A stretch of 48,558 nt of DNA from a virus. This document shows positions 16,020 to 47,970 of this stretch, in pieces. How positions within the stretch are numbered: the first letter of the stretch is position 1; each line of letters opens with the position of its first letter. A program made the translations under genes and the position numbers. The notes below the pieces were generated by a model. The model saw only the letters and a program-made list of their open reading frames with translations. It was not told the DNA's origin and searched no databases. Location: IMG/VR virus record IMGVR_UViG_3300036852_000350, positions 1 to 48,558 of that record. The stretch is one strand, 5' to 3'.

Positions 16020-16282
16020 GGCTTGTAGAGGTCGAGTGGATAGATAGCGTTTCTCACTGCGACAAACCCTGGCACTCTCGCCAGGAACTCAGCGATGGTT
16101 TGGACACCCTGACCTGTTGGACCGCTGGCTATCTGTTCCATGAAAACGATGAGCACTTGACGGTCACCCTTTCTTGGGGCGAGGGTGAGGATGGCGAGGT
16201 TGGGATGGCACTGACGATTCCCCGTCGCTGCATCGTTTCTGTTCGTGACCTCCAGCATGTCCACATGCCAACCTTGGCGTGA
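16016..16282 (+). CDS. Small hypothetical protein
   Basis: 88 residues from TTG 16016 in a 4-nt overlap. Predicted beta-rich: RLVEVEWIDSVSHCDKPWHS, AGYLFHENDEHLTVTLSWGE, MALTIPRRCIVSVRDL. This order recalls small phage proteins in front of glycosyltransferase or terminase genes, but I know no function. Confidence 0.6.
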   Translation: MRLVEVEWIDSVSHCDKPWHSRQELSDGLDTLTCWTAGYLFHENDEHLTVTLSWGEGEDGEVGMALTIPRRCIVSVRDLQHVHMPTLA

Positions 16283-18590: not shown

Positions 18591-20150
18591 GTGGAGCCCT
18601 GGAAACGAGTTCTTCTCGATAATCCAGACCTTTTTGTTCTTCGCTACTTTCCCCACCGCATCGAGCGGCTGGAGGACTTCCACCTTCGCCTAATCAAGTC
18701 CGCGATCGGGCAGAACCGGGCGCTGATTCTCTACCCAGCAGGGCACGGGAAAACCACCCTCGTTTCAACGCTGCTGCCGATCTGGGCGCTTTGCCATAAC
18801 CCGAACATTCGTATCGCCATCATCGGCAAGAACGACACCGAGGGTGAGGCGATCATGTCCGTCATCCAGGCGGAGCTGGTGGAGAATGAGGAATTGGCCC
18901 GCGACTTCGGCCCGTTCAAGCCCGAGGCCGATTCGCAGAAGCCGTGGGCGCTTGGCCGCATGTCGGTGGTGAGGCGAACCCGCCGCGCGAAAGAGGCGAC
19001 GATCACTGTCTTTGGCTCCGGTGCTAAAACCGTTCTGGGGTATAGAACGGATTGGACGATTTGCGACGACGTTGTGACCGAAAAGAATTCGGCTACTCCC
19101 GTCCAGCGCCAGAAGACAAAAGATTGGTTCGACCTTTGTGTAGAAACCGGGCCAGAGCACATTGAATCTAGGCTTACCGTCGTCGGGACGCGCTTTGATC
19201 CCAATGACCTCTACGGGGATTTGGAGGAAATGATAAACCCCGAGAGCGGGGCGCGACTTTGGCACATGCAGAAAGAGGATGCGATCCGCGACGAGGAGGA
19301 ACACAAAACGCTCTGGGAGGCGCGCTGGCCCTGGCTGCGGCTGATGGAGCAAAAGGCCAAGGTTGGAACGCTCGCATTCAATAAGCGCTATCGAAACATC
19401 GCCGTCGACGCGTCTCGCATGGTCTTTCGCGAAGAGTACGTTCGCGGCGGTTGGGCGGTTGGGCACCAATATCCGGGGTGCCTCGACCGCACTTACAAGA
19501 GCGGCGACTATGGGGACAATTGGCGTCTTGTCTCCGGTTTCGACCCGGCTATTGGAACAGGGCATTCCGCCAAGTTCTGTGCGCACGCTGTTTTGGCGCA
19601 GGGTTCTTGCATCGACCACGAACGCTGTTTTTGGGTTGTAGACATGACCCGAGAGCAGATGACCTTGCCGCAGCAGGTCGACCTGATTCTGGCGAAGCAC
19701 CAGGAATACAAGCTGTTCAAGTCGGTTGTGGAGGCAAACAGCTATCAGGCGGGGTTGCTCCAGGCGCTCGAGCACAAGATGAACGAGCGGGGAGACCAAC
19801 TCGCAGTCGAGCCGCATTACACCACGCGCACCAACAAGCCCGACCCCGAGATCGGAGTCCAGTCAATGGCCCCCTGGTTCGAGCGGGGCGCCGTTCACAT
19901 TCCCTGGGCGGATGGGTTTTCCCGGCGGCGGATGCAGCAGTTTGTTGACGAGCTCATTATGTACCCGGATTCGCGCACCACGGACACGGTGCTTGCGTTC
20001 TGGTTCGCGTGGCGAGCGCTACAAGAATCGGCACCCAAGTTCGGCTCCTATAACCGTCTTGACCGTAACCCGGCGCTGAAAAGCTTGCGGAGTGTTGCGC
20101 CAGGAAGGCGGGTCCTCAAGAATCCGTACTACATCCAGGAGGCCGCGTAG
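18591..20150 (+). CDS. terL: Terminase large subunit
   Basis: 519 residues from GTG 18591. ATPase domain: Walker A PAGHGKTT at residues 49-56, Walker B WTICDD with Asp159-Asp160. Nuclease domain: first acidic residue Asp318 in SGFDPAIGTG, a KSVVEANSYQAGLL segment, and the C-terminal RTTDTVLAFWFAW acidic motif. It packages DNA into proheads and cuts the concatemer. Which packaging mode it uses (headful or cohesive ends) cannot be read from the sequence; the circular assembly fits either. It is followed immediately by the portal gene. Confidence 0.95.
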   Translation: MEPWKRVLLDNPDLFVLRYFPHRIERLEDFHLRLIKSAIGQNRALILYPAGHGKTTLVSTLLPIWALCHNPNIRIAIIGKNDTEGEAIMSVIQAELVENEELARDFGPFKPEADSQKPWALGRMSVVRRTRRAKEATITVFGSGAKTVLGYRTDWTICDDVVTEKNSATPVQRQKTKDWFDLCVETGPEHIESRLTVVGTRFDPNDLYGDLEEMINPESGARLWHMQKEDAIRDEEEHKTLWEARWPWLRLMEQKAKVGTLAFNKRYRNIAVDASRMVFREEYVRGGWAVGHQYPGCLDRTYKSGDYGDNWRLVSGFDPAIGTGHSAKFCAHAVLAQGSCIDHERCFWVVDMTREQMTLPQQVDLILAKHQEYKLFKSVVEANSYQAGLLQALEHKMNERGDQLAVEPHYTTRTNKPDPEIGVQSMAPWFERGAVHIPWADGFSRRRMQQFVDELIMYPDSRTTDTVLAFWFAWRALQESAPKFGSYNRLDRNPALKSLRSVAPGRRVLKNPYYIQEAA

Positions 20151-22241
20151 GTGGCAATCGACTACGAGGCGGCCAAGCGGCTCCGCGATGATCTCGATCG
20201 TGACTACACGGATCGGCACGCGACCTTTAAGAAACTTCGCGACTTCTGGCACGGACGACACTGGGAGACGATCGACTCACAGGCCCATGGGCTAGCGAGC
20301 CTGTTCAAGGATTTGCGGGGCCAGTCAGACGTAGGCCCGGACCTCAAGATCGTTCACAACGTCGTCAAGGAAGTCGTAGACAAGTACCAGACCTTTCTTT
20401 CTCCGACGCCAATGATCCAGGTCTACGTGGATCCGCCTGAGTCGGAGAAGCGTCGCGCGGCCTCGACCCGCAAGGAGCGATTCCTGTACGGCTGCTGGTC
20501 CGAAAACCAGATGAGCCAAATACTCGGCAAGCTCTCCTGGTACCTGCCGGTTTTTGGTGACTCGTTTCTAGGCATCTGGCCCGACTTCGAGAAGAACATT
20601 CCTCGTGTCGTTCTGCGCTCTCCCGAAAACGCCTATCCCTTCCACGGATTCGACGGGGACATGCGCGGCGTCATCTTTAGCTGGAAGATCAGGGAATCGG
20701 CGCTCAAGCGAGACTTTCCCAAGTATCAGCGCCGTGGTGACCGGATGCGCGGAAAGTTTCTTCGAGGACAACCGCAAGACCCAGAAGTGGAGTTGCTGGA
20801 ATACTCAGACGGTCGCGAGTTCGCCCGCTGGGGTGACGATCAGAAACTCAACGGGATCGAACACAGCCTGGGGTTCAACCTCTTTGACCAGGTGCAGTTT
20901 CTCAACGTGCCGGACGAGCCGTGGGGCCACGGCGCAATCGAGCAATACGTCGGACTGAACTTTGCCAGCGACGTGCTAAAGTCCCTCTTGATCCAGGCAG
21001 CCTTCGCATCGGTATTTCCCGAACTTGTTCTCATCAACCCGTCGAAGTTCTCGGAGAACATGGAACGTGGCCCCGGCGCTGTTTGGGGAGTCAACGAGGG
21101 CGGTGACGCCAAGTACCTCCAGGCCCCGGTACAAGGGATCGTCGCCAACACCCAGTTTGCCGCCAACATGGATCACAACATCCGCATCGGAACCGGGATG
21201 CCGGAAGTGAACATGGGGGTCGCCCCAACATCCTCCGTTGCAACCGGGAAGGCGATCAACGAGCTTCAGGGCGCGGCAACGGGGGCGATGGTCGAGCATG
21301 TGCAGGGGCTTGGTATTGGGCGCGGTCTCGTTTCGTGGAACGAAAAGGCGATCACGATAGCCCAGTCCATGTTCCGCGACGATCGAATCTATCTTTTTGG
21401 AGTCCGCCCTGAGTCGAACATGGACCTAGTGCCGCAGCGCTTCGCGTGGTCGGGCAAGGGCTCCGATCTTGTCGGTTCGCCGCGCAACGAAGTCATCTTC
21501 TCACCCCATATCTCCGACCACGAGAAGTTGGTCATGGGCCTCCAGGCTGCCGGCGGCGGGCTCGTGTCGAAGAAGTGGCAGCGAAACAACATCGGCATCC
21601 CTGACAACGAGGCGATGGTCGAAGAGATTTTGGCTGAGGCGCTGGAGGACGGTGTGCTCGGAGCAGTTCTTCAGCACTTCATGGCAGAGCCTTCGCCCGA
21701 GGGCGCGGAACAAACAGCGGAGCAGGCGGGGGCTTTCCTCTCCGGTCTTCCCGCGCCCGCGCCCCATCCGCTGCTCGCGCTTCCCGGTGGTTCGCCGCAG
21801 GGTGGTTCTGCCGGCGCGCAAGGTGGCGGCCCTCCTGTTGGGCCGATTTCACCCGGCGCCCCGGGTCAGGCTATGTCCCCCGCCCTGCGGGAGCCGCCCG
21901 GGAGCCCCCCGCCAGCGGGCCTGGCGCCGCAAGGTGCGCCGCAGGGACGGGGAGGCGCGATCGCGCTCAACGATGTCGTCGCAGCCTTCCAGTCGGTGCA
22001 GGGCGTCAGGGGGCGGGTATTTCTCGTCGGCGAGATCGTCGCCCGCGGCGAAACCTCCGCTGACATCGAGGTTGCGTTGACCGAGGATGATCGGCAGGCG
22101 ATCGGTACAGCTCCGTCATTGGCACAGTACGCACCTAGGTTCGTGTTCCATCAGGTTTCGGGCGAACCGCAGGAGGAGCATGTTGAAGTGACGCCAGGTC
22201 GCGTGCCACAACGAGGCGCCCTGGTCGCGGCGGCGGCGTAA
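20151..22241 (+). CDS. Portal protein
   Basis: 696 residues from GTG 20151, adjoining the terminase stop. Portal-like features: FKKLRDFWHGRHWE at the N-terminus, VHNVVKEVVDKYQTFLSP, then the crown and stem with NQMSQILGKLSWYLPVFGDS, LRSPENAYPF and helical GKAINELQGAATGAMVEHVQ. The last 150 residues are Gly/Pro/Ala-rich and disordered (LPAPAPHPLLALPGGSP), followed by a small beta domain. The portal forms the dodecameric ring at one capsid vertex. The length is at the upper end, as in podovirus-type portals. Confidence 0.85.
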   Translation: MAIDYEAAKRLRDDLDRDYTDRHATFKKLRDFWHGRHWETIDSQAHGLASLFKDLRGQSDVGPDLKIVHNVVKEVVDKYQTFLSPTPMIQVYVDPPESEKRRAASTRKERFLYGCWSENQMSQILGKLSWYLPVFGDSFLGIWPDFEKNIPRVVLRSPENAYPFHGFDGDMRGVIFSWKIRESALKRDFPKYQRRGDRMRGKFLRGQPQDPEVELLEYSDGREFARWGDDQKLNGIEHSLGFNLFDQVQFLNVPDEPWGHGAIEQYVGLNFASDVLKSLLIQAAFASVFPELVLINPSKFSENMERGPGAVWGVNEGGDAKYLQAPVQGIVANTQFAANMDHNIRIGTGMPEVNMGVAPTSSVATGKAINELQGAATGAMVEHVQGLGIGRGLVSWNEKAITIAQSMFRDDRIYLFGVRPESNMDLVPQRFAWSGKGSDLVGSPRNEVIFSPHISDHEKLVMGLQAAGGGLVSKKWQRNNIGIPDNEAMVEEILAEALEDGVLGAVLQHFMAEPSPEGAEQTAEQAGAFLSGLPAPAPHPLLALPGGSPQGGSAGAQGGGPPVGPISPGAPGQAMSPALREPPGSPPPAGLAPQGAPQGRGGAIALNDVVAAFQSVQGVRGRVFLVGEIVARGETSADIEVALTEDDRQAIGTAPSLAQYAPRFVFHQVSGEPQEEHVEVTPGRVPQRGALVAAAA

Positions 22242-32099: not shown

Positions 32100-33242
32100 A
32101 TGGCTCTAGCAGCAGCTTCACCCTTCGCTTCATTCGATATCACCGACAAGTCGCAGATTCGGGACATCTCCCCGGTTCTTTCCGAGGCGCTGTACCTGGA
32201 ACTCGGCCTACTCGGTAAGGGGCTGAACGTAGAGTTCGATGAGCCGGCGCAGGACACGGCCTTTATTTGGAACGAGGAGGCCCTGAACGCGCGCACGGCA
32301 ACAACGGCCGCGTCAGCAACCTCCACCGCAACCACGCTCTCGCTTACCGCTGGGCATGGTGCACGCTTCGGAATCGGTGACCTGATCTATGACACGGCGA
32401 TCAACTCGTCGGAGGTTCTTCAGGTCACGGATATCTCGACCGATTCGCTTACCGTCGTCAGAACGTACAACTCGACGGTGGCGGCCTCGATCGCGTCCGG
32501 GGCGACCCTGGCGACCTTCAGTGCCCGTCAGGAGGGTTCGGACATCGGCTCTGATAAGTCGGTCAAGCCGGTGGTCAGGGAGAACTACACGGAGATCCTC
32601 TTTGCCGGGGATCTGCTCGTCTCACGGACGCAGCGTAACCGCAAGATGGCGACGATTGCATTGGATGTCTCGCGCCAGCTCGCCAACCGCGCGATCGAGT
32701 TGAAGTTCGACCTGACGAGGATGGCCCTCTACGGAGAGAAGTCCTCATCGGCGGGTTCCGACACCGTATATCGCACTTGCGGTGGGATGCGGTCATGGAT
32801 CAGGGATAACAGCGGCATCACCTCCAGCACATCGGAGGCGCTGGCCTGGTCTGTGCTCAACACCCACAACAAGACGGCGGTGGATCGTGGCAAGTACCAC
32901 GATACGCTGACGGTCGGAACCGACCTTGTCGGCTCGCTTGCGGCGATCGACTCGTCGAATCGCCGGATGCTCGAATCCGACACCCAGGCTGGTTACACAA
33001 TCCAGCAGGTACGACTCGCCCAGGGCAACGTCGTCAACATCGTTGTTGATGGCCGAGTCAAGACCGGAGATGCCTTCCTGTACTCCAAGGAACAGGTGTC
33101 TCTACACCCGTTCGCGGGGAGCGGCATGTTCGTCATTGCCGCAACGGACTTCGTGGACGGTGTGAAAAGACGGTTGGGCGCTGAGTGGACGTTGCGTTTC
33201 CGTAACCCGGAAGTCGGCGTCTACCTCAGCAACCGCACGTAG
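32100..33242 (+). CDS. Major capsid protein (SU10/DUF5309-like)
   Basis: 380 residues from ATG 32100. N-terminus DITDKSQIRDISPVLSEALY; an inserted beta domain at residues about 65-135 (TATTLSLTAGHGARFGIGDL, then SSEVLQVTDISTDSLTVVRT); then VVRENYTEILFAGDLLVSRT, a conserved-looking helix QLANRAIELKFDLTRMALYG and C-terminal strands. The inserted domain and the ENYTEI...VSRTQ block match the SU10/DUF5309 capsid family, which has the HK97 fold. It builds the icosahedral shell. The exceptionally strong ribosome-binding site supports high expression. Confidence 0.85.
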   Translation: MALAAASPFASFDITDKSQIRDISPVLSEALYLELGLLGKGLNVEFDEPAQDTAFIWNEEALNARTATTAASATSTATTLSLTAGHGARFGIGDLIYDTAINSSEVLQVTDISTDSLTVVRTYNSTVAASIASGATLATFSARQEGSDIGSDKSVKPVVRENYTEILFAGDLLVSRTQRNRKMATIALDVSRQLANRAIELKFDLTRMALYGEKSSSAGSDTVYRTCGGMRSWIRDNSGITSSTSEALAWSVLNTHNKTAVDRGKYHDTLTVGTDLVGSLAAIDSSNRRMLESDTQAGYTIQQVRLAQGNVVNIVVDGRVKTGDAFLYSKEQVSLHPFAGSGMFVIAATDFVDGVKRRLGAEWTLRFRNPEVGVYLSNRT

Positions 33243-33254
33243 CACTACCAGTGA

Positions 33255-33278
33255 CGGGGGCGGCGCAAGTCGCCCCCG
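33255..33278 (+). terminator. Hairpin after the capsid gene
   Basis: CGGGGGCG (33255-33262) pairs perfectly with CGCCCCCG (33271-33278), 8-nt loop. No U-run follows. It may stabilise the capsid mRNA or lower transcription of downstream genes. Confidence 0.6.
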
Positions 33279-33295
33279 CACACCAGGAGGTTCTT

Positions 33296-33526
33296 TTGGT
33301 ACCAACCTGTATCCGCTGCAGGACGCAGCACTACAACTTCACGCCCTGTGAGAAAGCTACTGACTGGCAGGCCGCGCACACACGAGCAAACAGGCAGCCC
33401 GAAATGGAGTGGCGCACCGCTCCCGAGGGTTACCGCCCGTTCGGCGACAGGCTCACCAGTTACGAGCGTCACGGCAACGTCTACTACCTAAAGAGGCCGG
33501 GCGATGAACCGCCGCAAGCGGCCTAA
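33296..33526 (+). CDS. Small Cys-containing protein
   Basis: 76 residues from TTG 33296, with AGGAGG 5 nt upstream. CIRCRTQHYNFTPC at the N-terminus could bind zinc; the rest is polar, with WRTAPEGYRPFGDRLTSYER. Ends PQAA. Unknown; by position a minor structural or assembly protein. Confidence 0.6.
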   Translation: MVPTCIRCRTQHYNFTPCEKATDWQAAHTRANRQPEMEWRTAPEGYRPFGDRLTSYERHGNVYYLKRPGDEPPQAA

Positions 33527-33542
33527 GAAACGCCCCTACTAA
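33504..33542 (+). CDS. Possible 12-residue basic peptide
   Basis: ATG 33504, sequence MNRRKRPKKRPY, overlapping the end of the previous gene by 23 nt. Strongly basic. Such mini-frames of K/R/P appear in other phage head regions, to my memory, but its expression is not demonstrable here. Confidence 0.25.
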   Translation: MNRRKRPKKRPY

Positions 33543-33554
33543 GGAGGAGCCTGT

Positions 33555-33767
33555 ATGGCTGCATTTAGCCCCGGCGACCGTGTTGCCTGGGACCATCAGC
33601 TCGCGACACAGCATGCCGCCGGGTCGATCATTCGTATCGATGCGGCCGGGGGCGAGTTTGGTGTCGTCAAGGAAGTAGCGAACGAAGAGGGCACCTGGTT
33701 TCTCGTCGAGTTTGACGAGGGCGAGAAAGTGCTGACAGCCGACGAGCTTGTACGGGTCGGTGAATGA
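33555..33767 (+). CDS. Small SH3-like protein
   Basis: 70 residues from ATG 33555 with AAGGAGGAG upstream. The pattern FSPGDRVAWDHQ, then IIRIDAAGGEFGVVKEV, then TWFLVEFDEGEKVLTADELV is that of a small SH3-like beta barrel, as in KOW-type modules. Likely a head or neck decoration component. Stop overlaps next start. Confidence 0.6.
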   Translation: MAAFSPGDRVAWDHQLATQHAAGSIIRIDAAGGEFGVVKEVANEEGTWFLVEFDEGEKVLTADELVRVGE

Positions 33768-33961
33768 AAACACCGCTCCAGAGTTGGACGGATGTCCCCC
33801 AGTCAGTGTCTTTGGAGGCGGTCGTGATCCGCGCTGATGGGACGAGGGAGCCGCAGGGACAGATTGCTTACTGGCATCGCAACCCGCTTAAGCGATTCGC
33901 TTGGCGTGTTCGTCACCGCAATTTCAGATCACGCATTACGACAGCAGGAAAGGAGCTATAG
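33764..33961 (+). CDS. Small basic protein
   Basis: 65 residues from ATG 33764. Contains IAYWHRNPLKRFAWRVRHRN, then FRSRITTAGKEL. Basic and beta-like. Unknown; co-transcribed with neighbours, 3 nt from the next gene. Confidence 0.55.
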   Translation: MKTPLQSWTDVPQSVSLEAVVIRADGTREPQGQIAYWHRNPLKRFAWRVRHRNFRSRITTAGKEL

Positions 33962-33964
33962 GAA

Positions 33965-34366
33965 ATGGCGTTTGGTACCGCAACTGTGGTGACGAACAAA
34001 GGAAAGGCCATCCTGGCTGACCGGGTTCGCACCACTCCGGGCACTTACACAGCATCGCCGAAATATTGTGCGATGGGAACGGGCGCGACGGCCGCTGCGC
34101 GCACAGCAGTTGCGGCCGACACGGCTCTGTCTACAGAGGTGGAAACACGGGCGGCCGGCACGGAGTCTGTCGTTACCACCACACAGACGGGTGACACATA
34201 TCAGTCGCAGGGGACTGTCTCTGCGACGGCCACTAGGGCGGTTGACGAGGCCGGTCTTTTCGATGCGTCAACGGTTGGAAATATGTTCACGTCGGCGACC
34301 TTCTCGGTCATCAATTTGAACAACGGTGACTCTATCCAGTTCACTCACAAAGTCCAATTGACATAG
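33965..34366 (+). CDS. Virion structural protein, conserved phage family
   Basis: 133 residues from ATG 33965. The pattern VVTNKGKAILADRVRT, then YCAMGTGATAAARTAVAADT, then TYQSQGTVSATATRAVDEAG, then LFDASTVGNMFTSATFSVIN and DSIQFTHKVQLT is a common phage structural protein (often annotated as tail fibre- or baseplate-associated). It is beta-rich. Function unknown in detail. Confidence 0.7.
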   Translation: MAFGTATVVTNKGKAILADRVRTTPGTYTASPKYCAMGTGATAAARTAVAADTALSTEVETRAAGTESVVTTTQTGDTYQSQGTVSATATRAVDEAGLFDASTVGNMFTSATFSVINLNNGDSIQFTHKVQLT

Positions 34367-34373
34367 GGTCGAC

Positions 34374-34403
34374 TTGACTAAATTGGACGGAGTGTGCTAA
34401 TGT
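34374..34403 (+). promoter_or_regulatory. Promoter of endonuclease VII gene (near-leaderless)
   Basis: -35 TTGACT (34374-34379), 18-nt spacer, -10 TAATGT (34398-34403) preceded by TGC (extended -10). Transcription would start at about 34410, just at GTG 34411. No ribosome-binding site is present. CCAATT (34354-34359) and AATTGG (34381-34386) flank the -35 as an inverted repeat. Confidence 0.7.
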
Positions 34404-34410
34404 CTCTCTC

Positions 34411-34890
34411 GTGGCGAAACCGAAGAAGTGCCGGCGGTGCCGGAACGTGCTGGAAGACTGGCGACGGGCGCTTTGCCCAGAGTGTGCAAAGACGCATCGT
34501 TGGTGTAACCGATGCAAGTCCATCAAGCCTCTCGACGATTTCTTCCGATCGAAGAACGTCACCGGCGGGCGGACGAGGTACTGCCGTCAATGCCATTACG
34601 AGCACATCCGGCGACCAGAGGCTCTTGAGGCAAGGCAGGAATACTTCTACCGCTACCACCTGCGGCGAAAATTCGGGATTTCAGAAGAGGAAGCTGATCG
34701 ACTTGCGTCCGCGACGCATTGCGATTGCTGCGGGGCTGAGAAGGACGAGTTTCGGCTCCATGTGGATCACAACCACATCACGGGCCAAGTCAGGGGCGCG
34801 GTTTGTCGTTTGTGCAACTACGCAATTGGCTATCTCGAAAAAGAAGATCTCGTGGAGGCCGTCAGGGCATACCTCTTGCGCTACGCATAG
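34411..34890 (+). CDS. Endonuclease VII-like protein, free-standing
   Basis: 159 residues from GTG 34411. The N-terminus has paired zinc motifs (CRRCRN, CPEC, WCNRCKS and YCRQC), a pattern frequent in phage endonuclease VII relatives. The core is THCDCCGAEKDEFRLHVDHN, then HITGQVRGAVCRLCNYAIGY. DHNHITG with four Cys is the catalytic and zinc centre. It sits alone between virion genes under its own promoter, as expected for a free-standing homing-type endonuclease rather than a virion function. Confidence 0.88.
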   Translation: MAKPKKCRRCRNVLEDWRRALCPECAKTHRWCNRCKSIKPLDDFFRSKNVTGGRTRYCRQCHYEHIRRPEALEARQEYFYRYHLRRKFGISEEEADRLASATHCDCCGAEKDEFRLHVDHNHITGQVRGAVCRLCNYAIGYLEKEDLVEAVRAYLLRYA

Positions 34891-34912
34891 CCTCTCCGGG
34901 GGTGCATAGCTC

Positions 34913-35302
34913 GTGGCCGACGACTTCACGGTCTCCACTACGGGCGGCAACGAGGTAATCCGGGCCACCGGTCTTTCGGGCGGACAGAAAGCACAGCATC
35001 TTTTCGTCGGCCCCCTGCGTCGGACGCCGGTAGGCCCGCCCGAAAAACTGACGGTCGGCACCGGGGGGGTGGTAGGGCTTTCTCCTCCCGGCGCTGCGAC
35101 TCACGCCATGCTGTTCGTAGAAACGGCCGACATTCGTTACTACGAGGACGGGACGACGCCGACAACGGGGGCCGCCGGGAATGGCGCGCCTGTTGTTGCT
35201 GGAAACGTAATCGAGCTTGACCTTGCGTCGTTTGCGAACTTCAAGATGATCGCCAAGACGACGCTGGCCACCGTTCACGTCCTGTATTGGAAGTACGTTT
35301 AG
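34913..35302 (+). CDS. Small virion-region protein
   Basis: 129 residues from GTG 34913 with GGGGG upstream. Beta-rich and Gly/Thr-rich (DDFTVSTTGGNEVIRATGLS, ATHAMLFVETADIRYYEDGT, NVIELDLASFANFKMIAKT). The arrangement resembles small head-decoration or fibre proteins. No family recognised. Confidence 0.6.
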   Translation: MADDFTVSTTGGNEVIRATGLSGGQKAQHLFVGPLRRTPVGPPEKLTVGTGGVVGLSPPGAATHAMLFVETADIRYYEDGTTPTTGAAGNGAPVVAGNVIELDLASFANFKMIAKTTLATVHVLYWKYV

Positions 35303-35303
35303 C

Positions 35304-37013
35304 TTGCGGCCGAGGATTATCGGGGCGCTCGCAATCTTGGGGGCGCTCCTAGCAACAGGCACCTACATTTACAAGCAGCAATCGGCGCCGGTTAATACGG
35401 CCGCCCCCGTGATTACGGGCACCGATCAGGTTGGGGTCGGGCCTCTCGTTGCGAGCACAGGAACGTGGACAGAGAACCCCGCGAGTTTCAGCTATCAGTG
35501 GCAGCGTGCCGACAATCTTGCCTTTACTGCCAATGTGCTCAATGTCGGCTCGGACCAGGCGAGCTACGCGCTTACTGTCGGTGACGATGGGAAGTATCAC
35601 CGCGTTCAGGTTACGGCCACGAATACGAGTGGATCGTCAACGGCCACCTCGGCGGTTATCGGCCCCACGGCAGGAGCGACTGCTGCTGACTTCTTTGTCT
35701 CGACATCCGGCTCAGGGACAGCCTGCACCCTGGGGAATCCGTGCGGAAGCATGAACCAGGCATATGCGACCGCTGCGGCTGTGGCCACGTCTCCAAAAAC
35801 GGTCGAGATGGCCGGCGGAAGCTATGGGTCGCAAACTTGTAACTCCGCAACCCGGGCGGGGAATGGGCTTATCACCTTCCGGCCCGCTGCCGGGGCGACT
35901 GTGACAACGGGCGGGATTCTGTTCGGCTCAGACCCCGGCGGGTCGGGGGTGTGGACAACCGCCTCCTGCACCTATGTGAAGCTATTAGGGACGATGAGTC
36001 CCACGGTTGGTGAAGGTAACTCGAACTTCAAAGCTACCGGCACCATCATCCTGAATGGCAGCGCCGACAACATCACCATCGACGGGCTCGACGACAGGAA
36101 CTTTCGTGTCAAGGGGTCCTCCAACGTACTGCTCACGCGTCTAGATGATGGCCCGGAGCTAGTAGCTAAGCCAGGCACCGAGGCGGACTCGGAGTTCAAC
36201 CAGGGCTATCGGCAGGCGAACGGCGTCGGCGGCTTTATCTCGAACTCAAACGTCACGCTCAGTAACTCGAATATCCATGAGCACAACTGCGTCACGCTCA
36301 CCGACTGCCAGGGCGGCGACGCCGTTCACGTCCAGGGACTCTGGCTTTATTCGGCCAACGGTCTGACGATTTCAGGAAACAAATTCTGGGGGAACGGTAT
36401 CACCAACATGTTCCGCGATAACTGCGGCGTCGGCTGCACCAATACCTTCCAGGGTGTCGATATCGTCAACAACTGGTTTGGCGAAGCGCTAAACTGCGCC
36501 GGGGACACAGCCTCCACCTGCACCAACTTCTCAAGCAAGACGATTTTCCTCCAGAACAACCCGGCAACTGGGTCGTTCAAGATTCGTTTCAACACGTTCG
36601 CGCGGCACTCATATCCACTTTCCTGCTCCAGCGTCTCCATCTGCGGTAACGCCACCACGCATGCTGTGATCGCGGGAAACATCGGGCAGGGCGGCGCGAA
36701 CCTGTGCAGTTTCTCCAACGTCGATTTCTCCTACAACACCTGGTTTCGTACCGCTAGTGGCGACACTGCCTGTGGCGGATCAAACGACACGATGATGACC
36801 TGGGACCCGTCCGGGGACGGGATGGTCGGGAAACTCGTTGACTCCACCTCGTTCGTCACATTCAACTTCAACCTCTCCGGGGTGAACTGGGCCGCCGACA
36901 ACTCAATTCCATGTGGCAGCGTTAACGGTGGCTGCCCGACACCGGACCGTGCCGGTTTGAGCCGACCCCAGAACGCGAACGCTGATGCGGGAGCCGCCGA
37001 GAGGAACTCGTGA
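35304..37013 (+). CDS. Tailspike-like protein: Ig-like domain plus beta-helix
   Basis: 569 residues from TTG 35304. Hydrophobic N-terminus (IIGALAILGALLATGTYIY). Residues about 35-125 form an Ig-like domain (APVITGTDQVGVGPLVASTG, then FSYQWQRADN, then DGKYHRVQVTATNTSGSSTA). Residues about 130-560 are a right-handed parallel beta-helix (FFVSTSGSGTACTLGNPCGS, repeated N-x-I/V turns such as ITIDGLDDRNFRVKGSSN). Beta-helix proteins of this type bind and often cut surface polysaccharide. The Ig-like domain pattern is common in soil Actinobacteria. A hydrophobic N-terminus is unusual for a tailspike. Cysteines are frequent. Confidence 0.75.
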   Translation: MRPRIIGALAILGALLATGTYIYKQQSAPVNTAAPVITGTDQVGVGPLVASTGTWTENPASFSYQWQRADNLAFTANVLNVGSDQASYALTVGDDGKYHRVQVTATNTSGSSTATSAVIGPTAGATAADFFVSTSGSGTACTLGNPCGSMNQAYATAAAVATSPKTVEMAGGSYGSQTCNSATRAGNGLITFRPAAGATVTTGGILFGSDPGGSGVWTTASCTYVKLLGTMSPTVGEGNSNFKATGTIILNGSADNITIDGLDDRNFRVKGSSNVLLTRLDDGPELVAKPGTEADSEFNQGYRQANGVGGFISNSNVTLSNSNIHEHNCVTLTDCQGGDAVHVQGLWLYSANGLTISGNKFWGNGITNMFRDNCGVGCTNTFQGVDIVNNWFGEALNCAGDTASTCTNFSSKTIFLQNNPATGSFKIRFNTFARHSYPLSCSSVSICGNATTHAVIAGNIGQGGANLCSFSNVDFSYNTWFRTASGDTACGGSNDTMMTWDPSGDGMVGKLVDSTSFVTFNFNLSGVNWAADNSIPCGSVNGGCPTPDRAGLSRPQNANADAGAAERNS

Positions 37014-37014
37014 G

Positions 37015-37317
37015 CTACCCGCGATTCAACAACTGTCGCATCCAACCCCAAATCAAAACCGGGGTTAGCAGCAGTAACAGCAGAGTGCCGACTATCACCC
37101 CGAGACCGTCGCTTAACGGTCCCGTCCATGAGTCCTTCACGAGCCGCGGGGTGCGCATGGCCAGCGACTCTACGCGCTTCTTGACCAACCCAGCTACTAG
37201 ACCTTCGGGGGGTTTGCCGTGGCGATAACGCGCGACGTTCTTCTCGGCACAGCCGACATCAGCGCATTGGGTCATCCGCATTGATGTAGAAACAAAGCGT
37301 TGAAAGGACCCTTGCAA
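37015..37317 (-). CDS. Small membrane protein, minus strand
   Basis: Up to 100 residues on the minus strand, stop at 37015; a start at ATG 37158 is also possible. The C-terminus is a transmembrane helix, GLGVIVGTLLLLLLTPVLIW, followed by a short basic tail. Its hydrophobic segment resembles the N-terminal one of the methyltransferase just upstream (GVLLLMLLIPALVGWG). It overlaps that gene's end by 46 nt, so the two form a minus-strand pair. Confidence is limited as no ribosome-binding site is clear. Confidence 0.4.
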   Translation of the reverse strand: MQGSFQRFVSTSMRMTQCADVGCAEKNVARYRHGKPPEGLVAGLVKKRVESLAMRTPRLVKDSWTGPLSDGLGVIVGTLLLLLLTPVLIWGWMRQLLNRG

Positions 37318-38186
37318 TCAGGGAGCGGGCGCAGCCGCCTCGGCCACACCTGAAAACCGCTGTATCCGTCGAGACTCGATTCAATGACCTGGGCGCTCTC
37401 GCCGGTGACCTCACACAGTAGGGCCGGGTGATGCCGCTCGATGGTTTCGGCCATCCCGCCAAAAACGGCGAGCTCGTGGCCCTCTACGTCCACCTTGATC
37501 ATGCTTGGCGCGAGCCCGTGACGGGCCACCTCGGCATCGACGGTTGTCGTCTCCACCTCAACCCTTCTGACTTCCCCAAGTAGGGGCTGGCTCGCTTCAA
37601 GCGACGCCCAAGAGGAGTCACCTCCAATCGGGACAAGTAGCTGTGTTGAACCGGAGTGGCTGGACACCGCCTTGCCGATGACGAGCACGTTCGAGCAGGC
37701 GTTCAAGCCCAGGTGGCCCTCCAGGCGGCCTCTGGTCAGTGGGTTCGGCTCGAACGCCAGCACGCGTCCTCGTTTCAAGCGGGCAGCGGCGACCGTGTAG
37801 AGACCGATGTGGGCACCCACGTCAACGAAGTCACCGCGGAGGAATTCACGCAGCAGGGCAAACTCGGGCAGGTCGCACAAGCCGAATAGGTAGTCCCGTT
37901 CGAAGGGCTGCGACAGGTCGAGCCGGAGCCGTGTTCCGCCGCGGAACCTGGCGACCGCGGTTCCCCGGTTTCGGATCGGCAGCAGCCGATGTAAGGGGCG
38001 TTTCCCCCGCATCTCGAAGTGGCGGAAAGCAGGGTAGAGCGTCCATTCGAGGAGCATGGGAGCGGTCGCGGCCCGACACAAATCTCCCCAACCTACCAGA
38101 GCCGGGATTAACAACATCAACAACAGGACGCCAGCAGCGATACCGAGAGCGAGGATTTCTTGGCGACCATCATAGGCGCGGTCCAA
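37272..38186 (-). CDS. FkbM-family methyltransferase with N-terminal membrane helix
   Basis: 304 residues on the minus strand, from TTG at 38186 (a start is uncertain). Residues about 12-34 are a transmembrane segment (LALGIAAGVLLLMLLIPALV). The methyltransferase domain has motif I FVDVGAHIGLYTVAAARLKR, then RVLAFEPNPLTRGRLEGH, then TTVDAEVARHGLAPSMIKVDV and EGHELAVFGGMAETIE, all typical of FkbM enzymes, which methylate hydroxyls of glycans or natural products. A minus-strand -10-like TATAAC lies at 38217-38212. Alone on the minus strand among tail genes, it is probably a lysogenic-conversion cargo gene acting on host surface glycans. Confidence 0.8.
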   Translation of the reverse strand: MDRAYDGRQEILALGIAAGVLLLMLLIPALVGWGDLCRAATAPMLLEWTLYPAFRHFEMRGKRPLHRLLPIRNRGTAVARFRGGTRLRLDLSQPFERDYLFGLCDLPEFALLREFLRGDFVDVGAHIGLYTVAAARLKRGRVLAFEPNPLTRGRLEGHLGLNACSNVLVIGKAVSSHSGSTQLLVPIGGDSSWASLEASQPLLGEVRRVEVETTTVDAEVARHGLAPSMIKVDVEGHELAVFGGMAETIERHHPALLCEVTGESAQVIESSLDGYSGFQVWPRRLRPLPDCKGPFNALFLHQCG

Positions 38187-38891
38187 CTCGGCGACAACAC
38201 GGACGCTACCAGTTATACGGCGACCTCTTTCACCCCCGCCGCGAACGACTTGCTCGTAGCGTTTGTCGCAGCCACCCTAACTGTTGCGGCGGGTTCTATG
38301 ACGGACACTCAGGGGCTTGGCTGGACAAAAGCCACTAGCGCCTCTTACATAAGTAGCGGCTCAACCCTCTACTGTTTCGTGGCGAATGCTCTTGCCGCCG
38401 CGTCGTCGATGACAGTAACGTTTGACTGTACTGGCGATGCTTCTGCGGGCGTTCTAATGGTGGTCGCTCGTGTTAGTGGTATGTCTCGCACCGGGGCCGC
38501 GGCGGTTCTCCAGTCAGCGAAACAGGAAAACCAGGGCTCCGGCACCACTCCTGCGCCCGTTTTCGGCAACAGTGCACTGACCGGCAATCCGACGCTGGGC
38601 GCTGTGGCAAATACGTCGAATCCAGCTACCCTTACGCCGCCGACAGGGTGGACCGAGCTGGACGATCTGGGCATAACCAGCCCCACGGCGGGACTGGAAT
38701 ATATCGGCCGCAACTCGGGCTTCACAGGCACAACGGTTACCTGGGGCAGTACTAGTCCCACGCCTTTCGCCTCTCTCATTATTGAGTTGGACACAACCTC
38801 CGGGGCGGTCCAGTACAACCAGACGCTCTCGGCATCCAGTGGGGGAACGGCGACATCTCCTAAGCAGGTCAACAAGATCGTAGTGCCATAG
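38160..38891 (+). CDS. Virion beta-rich protein
   Basis: 243 residues from TTG 38160 (GAGGA 4 nt upstream), overlapping the 5' end of the minus-strand methyltransferase by 27 nt. Beta-rich and Gly/Ser/Thr-rich: ATSYTATSFTPAANDLLVAF, then VTFDCTGDASAGVLMVVARV, then GTTVTWGSTSPTPFASLIIE. This design is seen in phage and bacterial adhesin-like domains. Likely a tail or fibre component. Confidence 0.65.
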   Translation: MATIIGAVQLGDNTDATSYTATSFTPAANDLLVAFVAATLTVAAGSMTDTQGLGWTKATSASYISSGSTLYCFVANALAAASSMTVTFDCTGDASAGVLMVVARVSGMSRTGAAAVLQSAKQENQGSGTTPAPVFGNSALTGNPTLGAVANTSNPATLTPPTGWTELDDLGITSPTAGLEYIGRNSGFTGTTVTWGSTSPTPFASLIIELDTTSGAVQYNQTLSASSGGTATSPKQVNKIVVP

Positions 38892-39770
38892 GTGCCGGTC
38901 ACAGCAACCGCAACCCTGGCAAAACGGACGAACTGGGTTCGTAGCTATCAGGCCAAGGCCAACAGGGTTGCCTATCGCACATACGCTGCGACCACAACCC
39001 CATTGGCGACGTTGTCGATGGCCATCAGCAAGGCGGTCTTGGCTACCCTTCCCCCGGCCGCCTACGTTTCGAAGCGTGCGAGCGAAACGAAGTCCACATC
39101 GGCCACAGCAACCGCGACGATCGCGGCATCCGCGGCGCTGAATGCCCTCAAGACGCTAACGACCTCGGTCGTGGCGATTCCGACGCGGGTTAACAGGGTG
39201 AGCAAGACGCTCTCCACGTCCCTGCTCAATCTCCCGCTGCCCCCGATCGTTTCCAGCGTTACCCCCATTGCCTCGCTGGCCTTCTCGTATGTGTACGGCA
39301 AAGTCCTGTCGGTAACGCAGGGTCAGTCGGCGTTTGTCCAAATCGTCACAGCGCTCAGGCTTAGCTCGGCTGCGTCTTCGGTCGCAACCCTCTCCACACA
39401 GCTTGCAACGCAATTGAAAACGCTGACCGCCTCCGCCACAAGTACGGCCCTCGGGTTGGTGAAGTCGGTTCTGTTCGCGCTTCTCGCCAACAGCCAGGCA
39501 GCCGCATCTTCACAACTGGGTTCGCGCATCACCCTGACAACAAGCCAAAGCCAAGGCGCAACGCTCATCAGGGCCACGGTGATTGCGCCGATAGCGAAGG
39601 CGCTGACCACGGCCTCGTCTGCCCTGGCATCCCTAGTTGTGACGTTTCGTTCTCGCCATGATTCGGTTGCTCATCACCAGCCCGAGTTGACGGTCTCCGC
39701 GGGGACACGGGGGACCCTAACCCAGTTTGCTAGTAACAAGCCAAGCCTGATCGAAAGGGAGACTCCGTAG
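38892..39770 (+). CDS. Low-complexity Ala/Ser/Thr-rich virion protein
   Basis: 292 residues from GTG 38892, adjoining the previous stop. Regularly spaced Leu/Ala/Ser/Thr with loose repeats of the form T-x-x-K-x-L (ALKTLTTSVVAIPT, QLKTLTASATSTALGLVKSV). Few charged residues; no transmembrane pattern in the strict sense. It may be a fibrous or helical shaft segment. The composition is unlike its neighbours. No family recognised. Confidence 0.6.
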   Translation: MPVTATATLAKRTNWVRSYQAKANRVAYRTYAATTTPLATLSMAISKAVLATLPPAAYVSKRASETKSTSATATATIAASAALNALKTLTTSVVAIPTRVNRVSKTLSTSLLNLPLPPIVSSVTPIASLAFSYVYGKVLSVTQGQSAFVQIVTALRLSSAASSVATLSTQLATQLKTLTASATSTALGLVKSVLFALLANSQAAASSQLGSRITLTTSQSQGATLIRATVIAPIAKALTTASSALASLVVTFRSRHDSVAHHQPELTVSAGTRGTLTQFASNKPSLIERETP

Positions 39771-40637
39771 GTGCCCACCTCCGCCCCGGTACTCGTGCAA
39801 CGAACACGCAGGCTGATCCGCGATTACCCTGACTTGGGTGTAGCCGCCGGGTCACTTTCCTCGTCGGGTACTACGCTCTCGGTTGAGGACTCTTCTCTTT
39901 ATGGAGTCAACTCGGTTATCCAGGTTGACCTAGAGGCGATGCGAGTACAAGCAATTCCAGATGCCTTCTCTCTCACCGTCCGCCGGGCGGTGAGAGGCAC
40001 GAGCGCAGTCTCACATGCATCGAGCGCTGCAATTTTGATTCACCCGGCGTTTCTAGATGTCGAGATTCTGGACTCCCTAAACGAAGGTCTCGACGCTTGC
40101 TTTCCGCTGCTTTACCGTCCAATCTCGCTTGAGTACACGGGGATTGTCGATCCCAACTACGAATACTTGGTTCCAAATATGTCCGGGATCGGTGTACCGA
40201 TTCCTTACCTGTCTGAGATCGAGTTCAAAGAGACGGGGGATCCTTCCTTCCACAAGGACGAAGCCTGGTGGGTTGTTCGGGGTGAGACTCCCTTTATCAA
40301 GTTCCGCCGCCAACCGGTCGCAGGCTCACGCATTCGTATTTCCGGGTACGGCCCCTTTACCCATCTTCAGCTAGGAGTTAATCCGGCCAATACCCTTGAC
40401 GCATTCTTTCCGGTTCAGGCCGAATATCTGCCGACCCTATACGCGGCGGCGATGCTACTTGCCTCCGGCGAAGCGGGACGAGTGCGGGTTGATACCGGGG
40501 TAATCGACGATCGCGAGCAGGCCAACCGGACAGGATCGTCAATGGCTGCGTCGGATAAACTTTTGCAGCGTTTTTACAAGCGCCTGAATGACTCGGCGAT
40601 GCCGCCAATGCCGAAGCACGTCGTCTCGGTGTTCTAA
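39771..40637 (+). CDS. Neck or adaptor protein
   Basis: 288 residues from GTG 39771, adjoining the previous gene. N-terminal RTRRLIRDYPDLGVAAGSLS, then SGTTLSVEDSSLYGVNSVIQ and VRRAVRGTSAVSHASSA (a small beta module), then IHPAFLDVEILDSLNEGLDA and a C-terminal helical part (QAEYLPTLYAAAMLLASGEA, LLQRFYKRLND). This is reminiscent of the head-tail adaptor (gp11 or tail tubular A-like) of podoviruses. The downstream gene fits a nozzle. Confidence 0.65.
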   Translation: MPTSAPVLVQRTRRLIRDYPDLGVAAGSLSSSGTTLSVEDSSLYGVNSVIQVDLEAMRVQAIPDAFSLTVRRAVRGTSAVSHASSAAILIHPAFLDVEILDSLNEGLDACFPLLYRPISLEYTGIVDPNYEYLVPNMSGIGVPIPYLSEIEFKETGDPSFHKDEAWWVVRGETPFIKFRRQPVAGSRIRISGYGPFTHLQLGVNPANTLDAFFPVQAEYLPTLYAAAMLLASGEAGRVRVDTGVIDDREQANRTGSSMAASDKLLQRFYKRLNDSAMPPMPKHVVSVF

Positions 40638-42437
40638 ATGGCGGCGGCAAGCGAGGTGCCGAGCCGCTTCGACGTAATTATCAACGGCCAGGGCTATCTT
40701 CTCGCCGACGTTGAAGAAGTCAAAGCCCAGTTCGGCTACACCCCTACCTTCGTCACCAGGCAGAACACCCAGGGGGATTACGGGGACAACCAACAGGATT
40801 TCTGGCTGACGTGGACGCAAAGGGACTGGTCGTTGGGGGAGGAGCAGAAGTATTTTCGCCAGGCGGATGACCTGGCCCCCCGGCGGTATTCCACCGGCAC
40901 CAATGTTGATGTGCGGGTGCCCGGTGCGGTGGGGATGCGATACGCGAAAACGTCGGTGTCGTTCCCAGCCTCCCCGGTCGCGATGGTTGCCGGCGGGTTG
41001 GCGAGCAGCAATATCTTTGCCGCCACCGCGTCGAACCTCTATGAGGTTGACCCATCCGGCACCGCCACTGATCGGGGCGCCCACGGGCTTGGGGTGTCGC
41101 CGTCACGGCACGGGATCGCCAACGACGCCAGCGCCAAAATCTATTTAACCTCCAGCGTCAACCCCACGGTGGGGGTTCGCAAATGGACCGGCAGTGTTTT
41201 CAACACCTTCTCCGCCAGCGGCGCGGACGCCCTTGCGTTTCTAAACAACACTCTGTATGGGCTCCGCAACACCACCTGTGACCTTGTCCGCTGGGACACG
41301 AGCGGCGCCCTAACCTCCCTGTTCCCCTGGTTGACCGCGGACGGTGCCGCCTTTCTCCCTGGCGGGTCTAACGGCTCCAAGCTGCTCCCTTACGGTGGGG
41401 ACCTGCTGATCTACTTCGGTGGGGTCAGCCCTTCTAGCCTGTGGTTGTACGACGGCACCGGGGTCGTGCTTCTGCACCGCTTCGATCCTGGGTTTGTTGG
41501 TTCCGACGCTGTTGTCTCGAACGGCATTTGCTATGTGGCGGGGGTGTTGCAGCAAACGATTAACGGCAGCACCTACGGGGTGCAGGCCGTCTACTACTTT
41601 GCCCAGGGCACACCGGGGTTACTGTGGAAATCACAGGCGGCACCGGGGTTGTCGGTTGTGGGGCCGAGCATTGCGCCCTTCGACGGCGGCGTGGTCTGGA
41701 CCGAAGCCGCCACCAACCAGTTCATGTACTACAACCTTGCCGATGGCGGGGTGCAGCGCTTTGGGCTGTCAACCTTGGGCACGATTACGGTGGGTGGGCG
41801 GCGGAGTTTTCTGAGCGGCGGGGTTCTTACCAGCGCTGACCTGTACCCAAGCAGCAGCATAGCCACGACTACGACCGTGACGAGTTCGCTGGTGGACTTC
41901 GATTCGTCCTTGGACAAGCTGTTCCTGGGCGCGAGGGTGGACTTCGATGCGGCTACTGATGGTGATGGTGGATCTGTTGATGTGTCCTACAGGGTGAACG
42001 ACACGGCGGGGGCGTTCACCCTACTGCAGGCGGGGGCTGTCAGCGGCGCCGAATACAAGTTCCCGGCTGGGGTGTCGGGCAGAAGCATCGCTATCAAGGC
42101 CACCCTGAACAGAGGCACCTCGACACTCGGGCCGGTGTTGAAGCGCAAATCGGTGCGAGCCGCACCCCAGCAGTTTCCCTTCCGCCGCGACACCTTCATC
42201 CTCAACTGCACCGGCAGAGACGGGAAAATGCCGGTGAGGTTGCGGGATGGCACCTACCACCCGAAAGACGGATTGGAGATGGCGACAGAACTGCGGTCGG
42301 CGGCGAGGTCGGGGACTCCGGTCTCAATCACCGACGAGTTCGGCTCTTTCACCGGAATCATTGAGAACGACGGTTTTCAATTGAAAAGGGTTAGGCAGAA
42401 CGAGTTCATCGCGGTCGTTCCAGTCAGGGAAGTATGA
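40638..42437 (+). CDS. Tail nozzle-like beta-propeller protein
   Basis: 599 residues from ATG 40638, directly after the adaptor. Repeated propeller-like units: NIFAATASNLYEVDPSGTAT, IYLTSSVNPTVGVRKWTGSV, ALAFLNNTLYGLRNTTCDLV, DLLIYFGGVSPSSLWLYDGT, ISYVAGVLQQ-type strands, VVWTEAATNQFMYYNLADGG. The C-terminal part is a small beta domain. Podovirus tail nozzles have beta-propellers; the adaptor-nozzle order agrees. The alternative is a minor tail protein with a receptor-binding propeller. Confidence 0.65.
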   Translation: MAAASEVPSRFDVIINGQGYLLADVEEVKAQFGYTPTFVTRQNTQGDYGDNQQDFWLTWTQRDWSLGEEQKYFRQADDLAPRRYSTGTNVDVRVPGAVGMRYAKTSVSFPASPVAMVAGGLASSNIFAATASNLYEVDPSGTATDRGAHGLGVSPSRHGIANDASAKIYLTSSVNPTVGVRKWTGSVFNTFSASGADALAFLNNTLYGLRNTTCDLVRWDTSGALTSLFPWLTADGAAFLPGGSNGSKLLPYGGDLLIYFGGVSPSSLWLYDGTGVVLLHRFDPGFVGSDAVVSNGICYVAGVLQQTINGSTYGVQAVYYFAQGTPGLLWKSQAAPGLSVVGPSIAPFDGGVVWTEAATNQFMYYNLADGGVQRFGLSTLGTITVGGRRSFLSGGVLTSADLYPSSSIATTTTVTSSLVDFDSSLDKLFLGARVDFDAATDGDGGSVDVSYRVNDTAGAFTLLQAGAVSGAEYKFPAGVSGRSIAIKATLNRGTSTLGPVLKRKSVRAAPQQFPFRRDTFILNCTGRDGKMPVRLRDGTYHPKDGLEMATELRSAARSGTPVSITDEFGSFTGIIENDGFQLKRVRQNEFIAVVPVREV

Positions 42438-44087: not shown

Positions 44088-44215
44088 ACGCAGGAGCAAT
44101 CCTGATTCTGGGGAGCGTCATTATCTTCGCCTTTGCAGCGGCGGGGGTGTCGGTGGGCGGGCTGGCGCTCGTTCCGCTCGGGCTCGCGTTTTTCGCCGCC
44201 GGACATCTCGTGTGA
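44084..44215 (+). CDS. 43-residue membrane protein, holin candidate
   Basis: GTG 44084, 4-nt overlaps at both ends; the end overlaps the endolysin start. The sequence is almost all hydrophobic, with two helices (ILILGSVIIFAFAAAGVSVG and GLALVPLGLAFFAAGHLV). A small two-helix membrane protein just upstream of an endolysin fits a holin, which makes the membrane permeable at lysis. Confidence 0.55.
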   Translation: MNAGAILILGSVIIFAFAAAGVSVGGLALVPLGLAFFAAGHLV

Positions 44216-44751
44216 AGACCTATCGGGAGCGCGCGCTGGAGATAGCGCTGGGCGAAGTAGGCATACATGAGATCGGATTTCACAACCGGGGTAGGCGGGT
44301 CGACCAGTACGAGCGCGCCGATGATCTACCCGGCGTCGGCTACTCCTGGTGTATGTCGTTCGTCCAGTGGTGCTATCGGCAGGCCGGGCACAGGCTACCC
44401 ACCCTATCTCCCTCGGTTGGGATCGTCCTCAACTGGGCGCGCATGGCAGGGCTCGTGACGACGGGGCCGCGGCGAGGAGATCTCGTCTGCTTCAACTTCG
44501 ATGCCGACAGCTGGCCCGATCATGTCGGTTTCGTCATTCACAATTACCCGCTCTACATCCGCACGGTAGAGGGCAATACTTCGCCGGGCACGGGTGGTTC
44601 GCAGGCGGATGGCGGCGGGGTTTATCGGCGCACGCGGCGCAAGAGTCGCTGCATTTTCATCCGCGTCCCGGGGCGCCCGCGCAGGCCGCATCACCGCCCT
44701 GTCCGCCGGGCGGTTGTCCGGCGTGGCGGTTCGTCGGGACGCCCGGGGTGA
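44212..44751 (+). CDS. Endolysin, CHAP domain
   Basis: 179 residues from GTG 44212. CHAP-type cysteine peptidase or amidase: catalytic Cys47 in GYSWCMSFVQWCYR, His104 in WPDHVGFVIH, and Glu120 in RTVEGNTS. The N-terminal segment RALEIALGEVGIHEIG precedes the core as in other CHAP enzymes. The C-terminus is a basic tail (RRPHHRPVRRAVVRRGG) that may bind the cell wall. It degrades peptidoglycan for host lysis. No signal peptide is seen, so export would need a holin. Confidence 0.87.
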   Translation: MKTYRERALEIALGEVGIHEIGFHNRGRRVDQYERADDLPGVGYSWCMSFVQWCYRQAGHRLPTLSPSVGIVLNWARMAGLVTTGPRRGDLVCFNFDADSWPDHVGFVIHNYPLYIRTVEGNTSPGTGGSQADGGGVYRRTRRKSRCIFIRVPGRPRRPHHRPVRRAVVRRGGSSGRPG

Positions 44752-47246: not shown

Positions 47247-47441
47247 GTGGGCGACGAACCACAGGGGCTAGAGGACGCGCTTGTGCTGATCGTGGCGGCA
47301 TGCGACTTACTCAGACGTGCCCGGATCGTTCTAGGGCGCGCCGGAGTTCTCTCGCCTCCTGTTCCAGCTCCACCAGACGACGAATCACGGCCCCTATATC
47401 AATCGACTCAAACAACTCCGCCGGAACCCCCTCACGAATGA
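47247..47441 (+). CDS. Possible plus-strand gene antisense to the repressor end
   Basis: A 64-residue frame from GTG 47247 with GGAGGG about 9 nt upstream. It starts helical (ALVLIVAACDLLRRARIVLG), then becomes Pro-rich. From 47311 it runs antisense to the repressor coding region, whose codons make better sense. Kept only because the first part lies outside any gene. Confidence 0.25.
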   Translation: MGDEPQGLEDALVLIVAACDLLRRARIVLGRAGVLSPPVPAPPDDESRPLYQSTQTTPPEPPHE

Positions 47442-47601
47442 GCCCGTCGACATAGTCGCGTGGGTAGGCGCCCTTCTCCCAGTCGATCACCCGCTGCCTT
47501 GAGGTGCCAAGCGCTTTCGCCAGGCGCTCATGGGAGCCGTGGTGTTTTCGGAGTGCCCGTATTGCTTCCGGAAGGGTGCCATGACGTGACGCCGCGTCCA
47601 T
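47311..47601 (-). CDS. XRE-type HTH repressor (minus strand)
   Basis: 96 residues on the minus strand from ATG at 47601. Helix-turn-helix at residues about 12-45 (AIRALRKHHGSHERLAKALG, then TSRQRVIDWEKGAYPRDYV), typical of the Cro/CI (XRE) family; a C-terminal coiled coil (IRRLVELEQEARELRRALER) for dimerisation. It is transcribed opposite to the early operon, as expected for a lysogeny repressor. Its start codon lies within the motif CACGTCATG. No ribosome-binding site is visible. It has no protease or LexA-type domain, so induction is not SOS-cleavage-based in an obvious way. Confidence 0.8.
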   Translation of the reverse strand: MDAASRHGTLPEAIRALRKHHGSHERLAKALGTSRQRVIDWEKGAYPRDYVDGLIREGVPAELFESIDIGAVIRRLVELEQEARELRRALERSGHV

Positions 47602-47694
47602 GACGTGACGCAGTTTCCGGGAATTTCCTCTCGGGCGAAAGTGCCAAAGGGCTTGACACGTCATGTGACGTGATGTAATACTCCGCACGTCATG
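47580..47694. promoter_or_regulatory. Divergent switch region with repeated operators
   Basis: The motif CACGTCATG or its complement occurs at 47580-47588, 47599-47607 and 47686-47694. A palindrome CACGTCA-TG-TGACGTG lies at 47657-47672. The rightward promoter TTGACA (47653-47658), 17-nt spacer, TAATAC (47676-47681) contains the palindrome in its spacer and places the RNA start 3-5 nt before ATG 47692. A minus-strand -35-like TTGGCA lies at 47647-47642. Binding of either HTH protein here would set the lysis-lysogeny choice. Confidence 0.8.
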
Positions 47695-47970
47695 TCGCCG
47701 CGCCACCATCGGATTGGCCAGGAAATCCGTCTCGCCCGCACACGGCGGGGCTGGTCGCAGGAGCAGGCGGCGCGCCGCGTCGGCACCTCGCGTTTCCACT
47801 GGATCAAGTGGGAGCAGGGTCTCCACAAGCCGACGGCAGAATTCCAGAAACGGCTCATTCGTAACCTCGGCCTCGAGCCAGCCCTTTTCGATGAGGACGA
47901 TGAGGAGCGCCGCCGCGCGATGGTGCTGTACGGCGCGGTCAAAGACGCGATCAGGGAGCTTGTCGCGTGA
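47692..47970 (+). CDS. XRE-type HTH regulator (Cro-like position)
   Basis: 92 residues from ATG 47692. HTH at residues about 8-45 (IGQEIRLARTRRGWSQEQAA, then RRVGTSRFHWIKWEQGLHKP) is textbook XRE family. The mRNA starts only about 3-5 nt before the ATG. It is the first gene of the rightward early operon, divergent from the repressor, the place of Cro in lambdoid phages. It would repress or balance the divergent promoter. The stop overlaps the next GTG. Confidence 0.85.
   Translation: MSPRHHRIGQEIRLARTRRGWSQEQAARRVGTSRFHWIKWEQGLHKPTAEFQKRLIRNLGLEPALFDEDDEERRRAMVLYGAVKDAIRELVA

Follow-up and report, generated by a model that had tools for sequence, protein, structure and literature searches.

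The window analysed here is a virus record of 48.6 kb (48,558 nt, GC 0.614), in which the gap at 37.0-38.2 kb holds no convincing plus-strand gene and is filled by two minus-strand frames. The larger frame (37272-38186, 304 aa when read in its longest form from TTG 38186) encodes an FkbM-family (Methyltransf_21) SAM-dependent methyltransferase, as a sequence-only reading of this DNA had claimed. The encoded protein matches the PF05050 profile with E=9.6e-19 (68.6 bits vs a curated cut-off of 22.7; domain at about residues 119-262) and the FkbM protein family phrog_8156 with E=7.2e-23. In an 11-sequence alignment, its motifs DVGAHIG, FEPNP and IKVDVEG are intact, and D122, G124, A125, G128, E146, K231, D233, V234, E235 and G236 are invariant in all 11 sequences. 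The AlphaFold2 model has a mean pLDDT of 80 with the core mostly >90. A PDB search with the sequence gave no matches, but a structure search with the model placed the FkbM methyltransferase 2py6 at the top (E 1.1e-8, probability 1.00), followed by other class I methyltransferases. The phage protein shares the domain, motifs and fold of the PF05050 family including 2py6, although the identity to 2py6 is 19% in the structural alignment and the phage version adds an N-terminal helix and a small partner. Taking the sequence and the model fold together, the gene product is predicted to be a class I (Rossmann-type) SAM-dependent methyltransferase. The closest homologue, L002, comes from a Thermoleophilia MAG (JAICPI010000044.1) and is 55% identical over residues 45-299.

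The second minus-strand gene (37015-37275) encodes a small membrane protein of 86 aa from ATG 37275, with one C-terminal helix and no family assignment. In its longest form the frame covers 37015-37317 and would give 100 aa from TTG 37317. At the minus-strand junction, which reads CAATGCGGATGACCC, the FkbM stop TGA and the small-gene ATG overlap as ATGA. Such a stop/start overlap is the usual sign of translational coupling, and the start of the small gene is most likely ATG 37275, not TTG 37317; the protein itself is thus likely shorter than the open frame. The model of the small protein is reliable for the helix only (residues 68-98 in the numbering of the 100-aa form, pLDDT >90). No relatives of the small protein were found in phages or viral contigs, and the weak matches (E 0.004-0.006) obtained from 349 genomes of the class that includes L002 were not accepted as homologues.

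The cassette is flanked on both sides by plus-strand genes. The left gene (35304-37013, 569 aa, hydrophobic N-terminus) is convergent with the cassette, and the two stops lie 1 nt apart, the plus stop being at 37013 and the minus stop beginning at 37015. Behind its hydrophobic N-terminal helix, the protein matches phrog_26223 over residues 20-127; several segments matching it are present at another place, 12.7-15.3 kb, in the related phage G005. The right gene (38160-38891), which has no assigned function, starts at TTG 38160, and this start is right because its homologue in the viral contig L056, 62% identical from residue 1, starts at the same residue; L057-L059 are 44-48% identical. The proposed 27-nt divergent overlap (38160-38186) is consequently real, with a well-supported start on its plus side and, on its minus side, the FkbM start that gives the longest frame. 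Homologues of the right flanking gene in L056-L065 have no FkbM or small gene nearby, and these phages, being differently ordered, were rejected as a true empty site. The claim that all neighbours are on the plus strand holds for both flanking genes, but the cassette is probably not the sole minus-strand gene, since a weakly matching HTH gene lies at 47311-47826.

A promoter-like TTGTCG-17-TATGAT sequence, a consensus match only, is located at 38169-38197 on the minus strand and points into the cassette; one such match was found vs 0.2 expected in shuffles. No terminator of its own was found 3' of the small gene. The cassette borders carry neither a target-site duplication nor good inverted repeats, the longest direct match being 8 nt, at unmatched positions, and the longest inverted match 7 nt. 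The GC content of the cassette (~0.60-0.63 vs 0.614 for the window) equals that of the rest of the phage, and there is therefore no sign of recent import in its composition.

The FkbM frame begins with a 43-residue extension (38058-38186, minus strand) upstream of an alternative start, ATG 38057. This extension contains one predicted membrane helix at about residues 11-33 with a mean hydropathy of 2.68, which the AlphaFold2 model places at residues 7-31 with low confidence. Across the six frames of the window, a mean hydropathy of at least 2.4 occurs at only 7 places, two of which are the helices of FkbM and the small protein. The two helices match each other with a BLOSUM score of 59, which was reached by none of 5000 composition shuffles and compares with 40 for the best other frame of the window, so the expectation that the second small protein carries a similar helix proved correct. 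As DNA, the helix-coding stretches score 65, reached by none of ~9900 random same-strand stretches, and their 18 codon pairs comprise 4 same, 6 synonymous and 8 changed ones, with changes mostly hydrophobic-to-hydrophobic. The segments that encode these homologous helices, one near each end of the cassette, constitute a direct repeat of ~95 bp that has diverged; its left copy (small protein) lies at 37018-37113 and its right copy (FkbM N-terminus) at 38066-38158, both on the minus strand. This repeat suggests a duplication of the helix-coding segment.

Whether the helix is part of the enzyme depends on the start codon. The extension lies in the FkbM reading frame, as the proposed fusion implied, but L002 begins exactly at phage Met44 (ATG 38057), without the helix. 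A comparable N-terminal helix was present in none of 29 FkbM relatives; the two borderline hydrophobic stretches seen there are located far upstream, in frames that are over-long. Moreover, the promoter-like site, read literally, would start the RNA after TTG 38186. These observations favor a soluble FkbM translated from ATG 38057, with the upstream helix stretch as an untranslated remnant of a duplicated small-membrane-protein gene and the small protein working by itself, for instance as an exclusion protein in the membrane. Against this, the extension is open, in frame and coding-like in its codon-position GC (0.67/0.49/0.60), it is an extreme hydrophobic outlier, and the pattern of codon pairs is the one expected if both helices are translated. 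No clear ribosome-binding site was found at any FkbM candidate start, which again counts against the helix being part of the enzyme. On balance, we consider the anchored form, with the helix translated, to be fairly probable, and the soluble form, an anatomical variant compatible with any functional reading, to be unlikely though well worth keeping in view. Phage FkbM methyltransferases themselves are already known; what is unusual is that two proteins share one membrane helix.

In addition to the cassette, the window encodes an integrase (4149-5102, PF00589), a terminase and portal (18591-22241), a major head protein (32100-33242), a connector-like protein (39771-40637), an endolysin (44212-44751), and an Erf-like annealing protein with an exonuclease, while no tRNA genes were found in it. 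A phrog_15773 gene occupies 8-766, and its homologue in G005 (40485-41456) contains apparent tandem repeats of ~24 bp, which produce many shifted matches. A GT4-like glycosyltransferase gene (16279-17418; phrog_7162, PF13524) lies just before the terminase and is overlapped and followed by a DNA-methyltransferase-like gene (17201-17866, phrog_2675). A divergent pair of HTH genes at 47311-47970, in which the minus member (47311-47826) is a weak match and the plus member matches phrog_2439 with 8e-9, is probably a repressor/Cro-like switch. Because of the integrase and these divergent regulators at 47.3-48.0 kb, a lysogenic phase is plausible and the phage is plausibly temperate. A terminase search covering 349 genomes from the L002 class and 396 from its phylum (E 1e-30, run without a positive control) gave no match, and therefore a host prophage was not found.

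We compared the locus with three related phages, whose terminases are 58-63% identical and whose connector-like proteins are 42-45% identical to those of the window. In the record G003 (48457 bp), the connector-like gene is split across both ends of the contig, which is probably a permuted circle. The interval from the head protein to the connector-like gene is 6.5 kb here (33243-39770) vs 0.90, 0.90 and 0.26 kb in the relatives, where it holds small genes on the same strand. Besides the cassette, the block contains an endonuclease VII-like gene (34411-34890, PF02945), the 35304-37013 gene and two plus-strand genes; a second endonuclease VII-type gene (PF02945) is found elsewhere, at 7997-8419. 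The extra genes thus make up the whole 6.5-kb block, a variable site for added genes that extends beyond the cassette alone. The site that had been placed inside the tail genes lies in a variable stretch from the major head protein to the conserved connector-like gene, and tail genes are not proven there. The synteny comparison with cassette-free relatives that had been suggested as a check shows that the cassette is absent at the same site in all three, none of which has an FkbM gene. Single-sequence scans of viral contigs with FkbM, the small protein, the head protein and the connector-like protein found no relatives, and alignment-based scans with FkbM and the connector recovered the three phages that the terminase had identified, plus L050 and nothing else. 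L050 (134-10035) is from an unrelated 75-kb phage contig in which a weak GT9-like gene and FkbM are flanked by a baseplate J gene and by tail-fibre genes of the S74-chaperone type; the pair may be a module for tail-fibre glycans.

The genomic surroundings of L002 point to the origin of the cassette. Its neighbours encode GT2 glycosyltransferases, a Wzz-like protein, a PF02397 sugar transferase, an epimerase and a polysaccharide deacetylase, and because of these polysaccharide genes its native role is most likely surface polysaccharide methylation. L002 differs from the phage gene in that it belongs to a chromosomal-type polysaccharide cluster and has neither the helix nor the small partner. 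Other FkbM relatives in the same class are at most 44% identical. FkbM proteins in general occur commonly in viruses, but among phages with annotated genomes the relatives are remote only: phages of phrog_8156 (Sinorhizobium phage phi3LM21, Xanthomonas phage XacN1 and Streptomyces phage Ankus) also carry an FkbM domain, but it is 28-32% identical to the one here over about half of the protein. The phage appears to have acquired the cassette from a bacterial gene cluster for surface polysaccharide. Because small molecules are also substrates of FkbM enzymes, a glycan substrate for the phage enzyme is suggested by gene context only.

The reading that best accommodates these results, to which we give about an even chance, is a two-gene moron in which a membrane-held FkbM would methylate a host envelope glycan in lysogens and alter the surface to which phages bind. 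The N-terminal helix would probably anchor the methyltransferase to the inner face of the cytoplasmic membrane, with the enzyme in the cytoplasm because an arginine-rich side follows the helix. The single-pass small protein, coupled through ATGA, may pair with FkbM via the homologous helix, or it may instead place FkbM beside membrane-bound glycan assembly enzymes. FkbM would then O-methylate a sugar in a host envelope polysaccharide that is lipid-linked or still nascent. In lysogens, a minus-strand promoter belonging to the cassette would drive its expression separately from that of the structural genes, and the changed surface may alter the binding of other phages or of the same phage, leading to exclusion. 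The idea of exclusion is drawn by analogy with prophage serotype conversion. Well-known examples of prophage enzymes that alter sugars of the surface and block phages are P22 gtrABC and the D3 O-acetylase (reviewed in PMC11436027); the logic proposed here is the same, but those systems transfer glucosyl and acetyl groups while a methyl group is predicted from the family here. None of the GtrA flippase, GtrB bactoprenol transferase and GtrC families was found in the cassette or the examined neighbours. The surface-glycan moron envisaged in the sequence-only reading gains from the absence of the cassette in the relatives, the temperate features and the polysaccharide cluster around its nearest relative, but the missing terminator and the composition, which is not foreign, speak against it.

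A more specific version, which we regard as rather doubtful, is that fusion to a copy of the partner's helix turned a captured soluble methyltransferase into a membrane enzyme and that the matching helices would join both proteins at the site of glycan assembly. With similar reserve, such a unit could be seen as the equivalent, based on methyl transfer, of gtr-type serotype conversion; its host may be a Thermoleophilia-like actinobacterium, a kind of host for which we know of no cultured phage model.

Apart from the soluble variant, the main rival to the moron is modification of virion glycans, a serious alternative in which FkbM would cap or tailor glycans attached to head or tail proteins by a glycosyltransferase of the phage itself. 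The phage has the GT4-like glycosyltransferase at 16279-17418, which all three relatives share at 35-40%, and the FkbM of L050 sits between S74/gp34-type tail-fibre genes, co-oriented with them and adjoining a weak GT9-like protein. Glycosylation of mycobacteriophage virions is reported (Freeman et al. 2023, cited in PMC11256854). However, the relatives keep the glycosyltransferase without FkbM, a membrane anchor is unexpected for a modifier of virion proteins, and FkbM opposes the structural genes, which would call for expression from the other strand in the late phase. The orientation of the cassette neither proves lysogenic expression nor settles this rival, because the bS21 genes of phages, which sit among structural genes in reverse orientation, show late expression (PMC9723584). 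Weakened by the strand and the helix, virion decoration seems to us improbable, although it is the strongest of the functional rivals.

Less probable still is methylation of a small molecule or lipid unrelated to the surface, in which an FkbM of the natural-product type would be a neutral or metabolic passenger. The family is named after a methyltransferase of a polyketide pathway, which counts in favor of this explanation. Earlier authors counted the FkbM gene of a phage as part of auxiliary metabolism in the polyketide sense (PMC5537653), but the closest homologue sits in a surface-polysaccharide cluster. Finally, a high-GC phage has many shadow frames, but chance frames on the shadow strand are rejected with near certainty for the FkbM gene, though not by extension for the small gene, by the 55% identity over 255 residues with a cellular protein, the Pfam match (E 1e-18) and the lack of a convincing plus-strand gene in the gap.

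If the anchored form does not hold, the locus adds one further phage FkbM gene, whose nearest relative is well evidenced in a polysaccharide cluster. If it is true, helix duplication would have turned a glycan enzyme captured from a host into a membrane-localised surface modifier, and the cassette would be a concrete candidate for a methylation-based receptor change.
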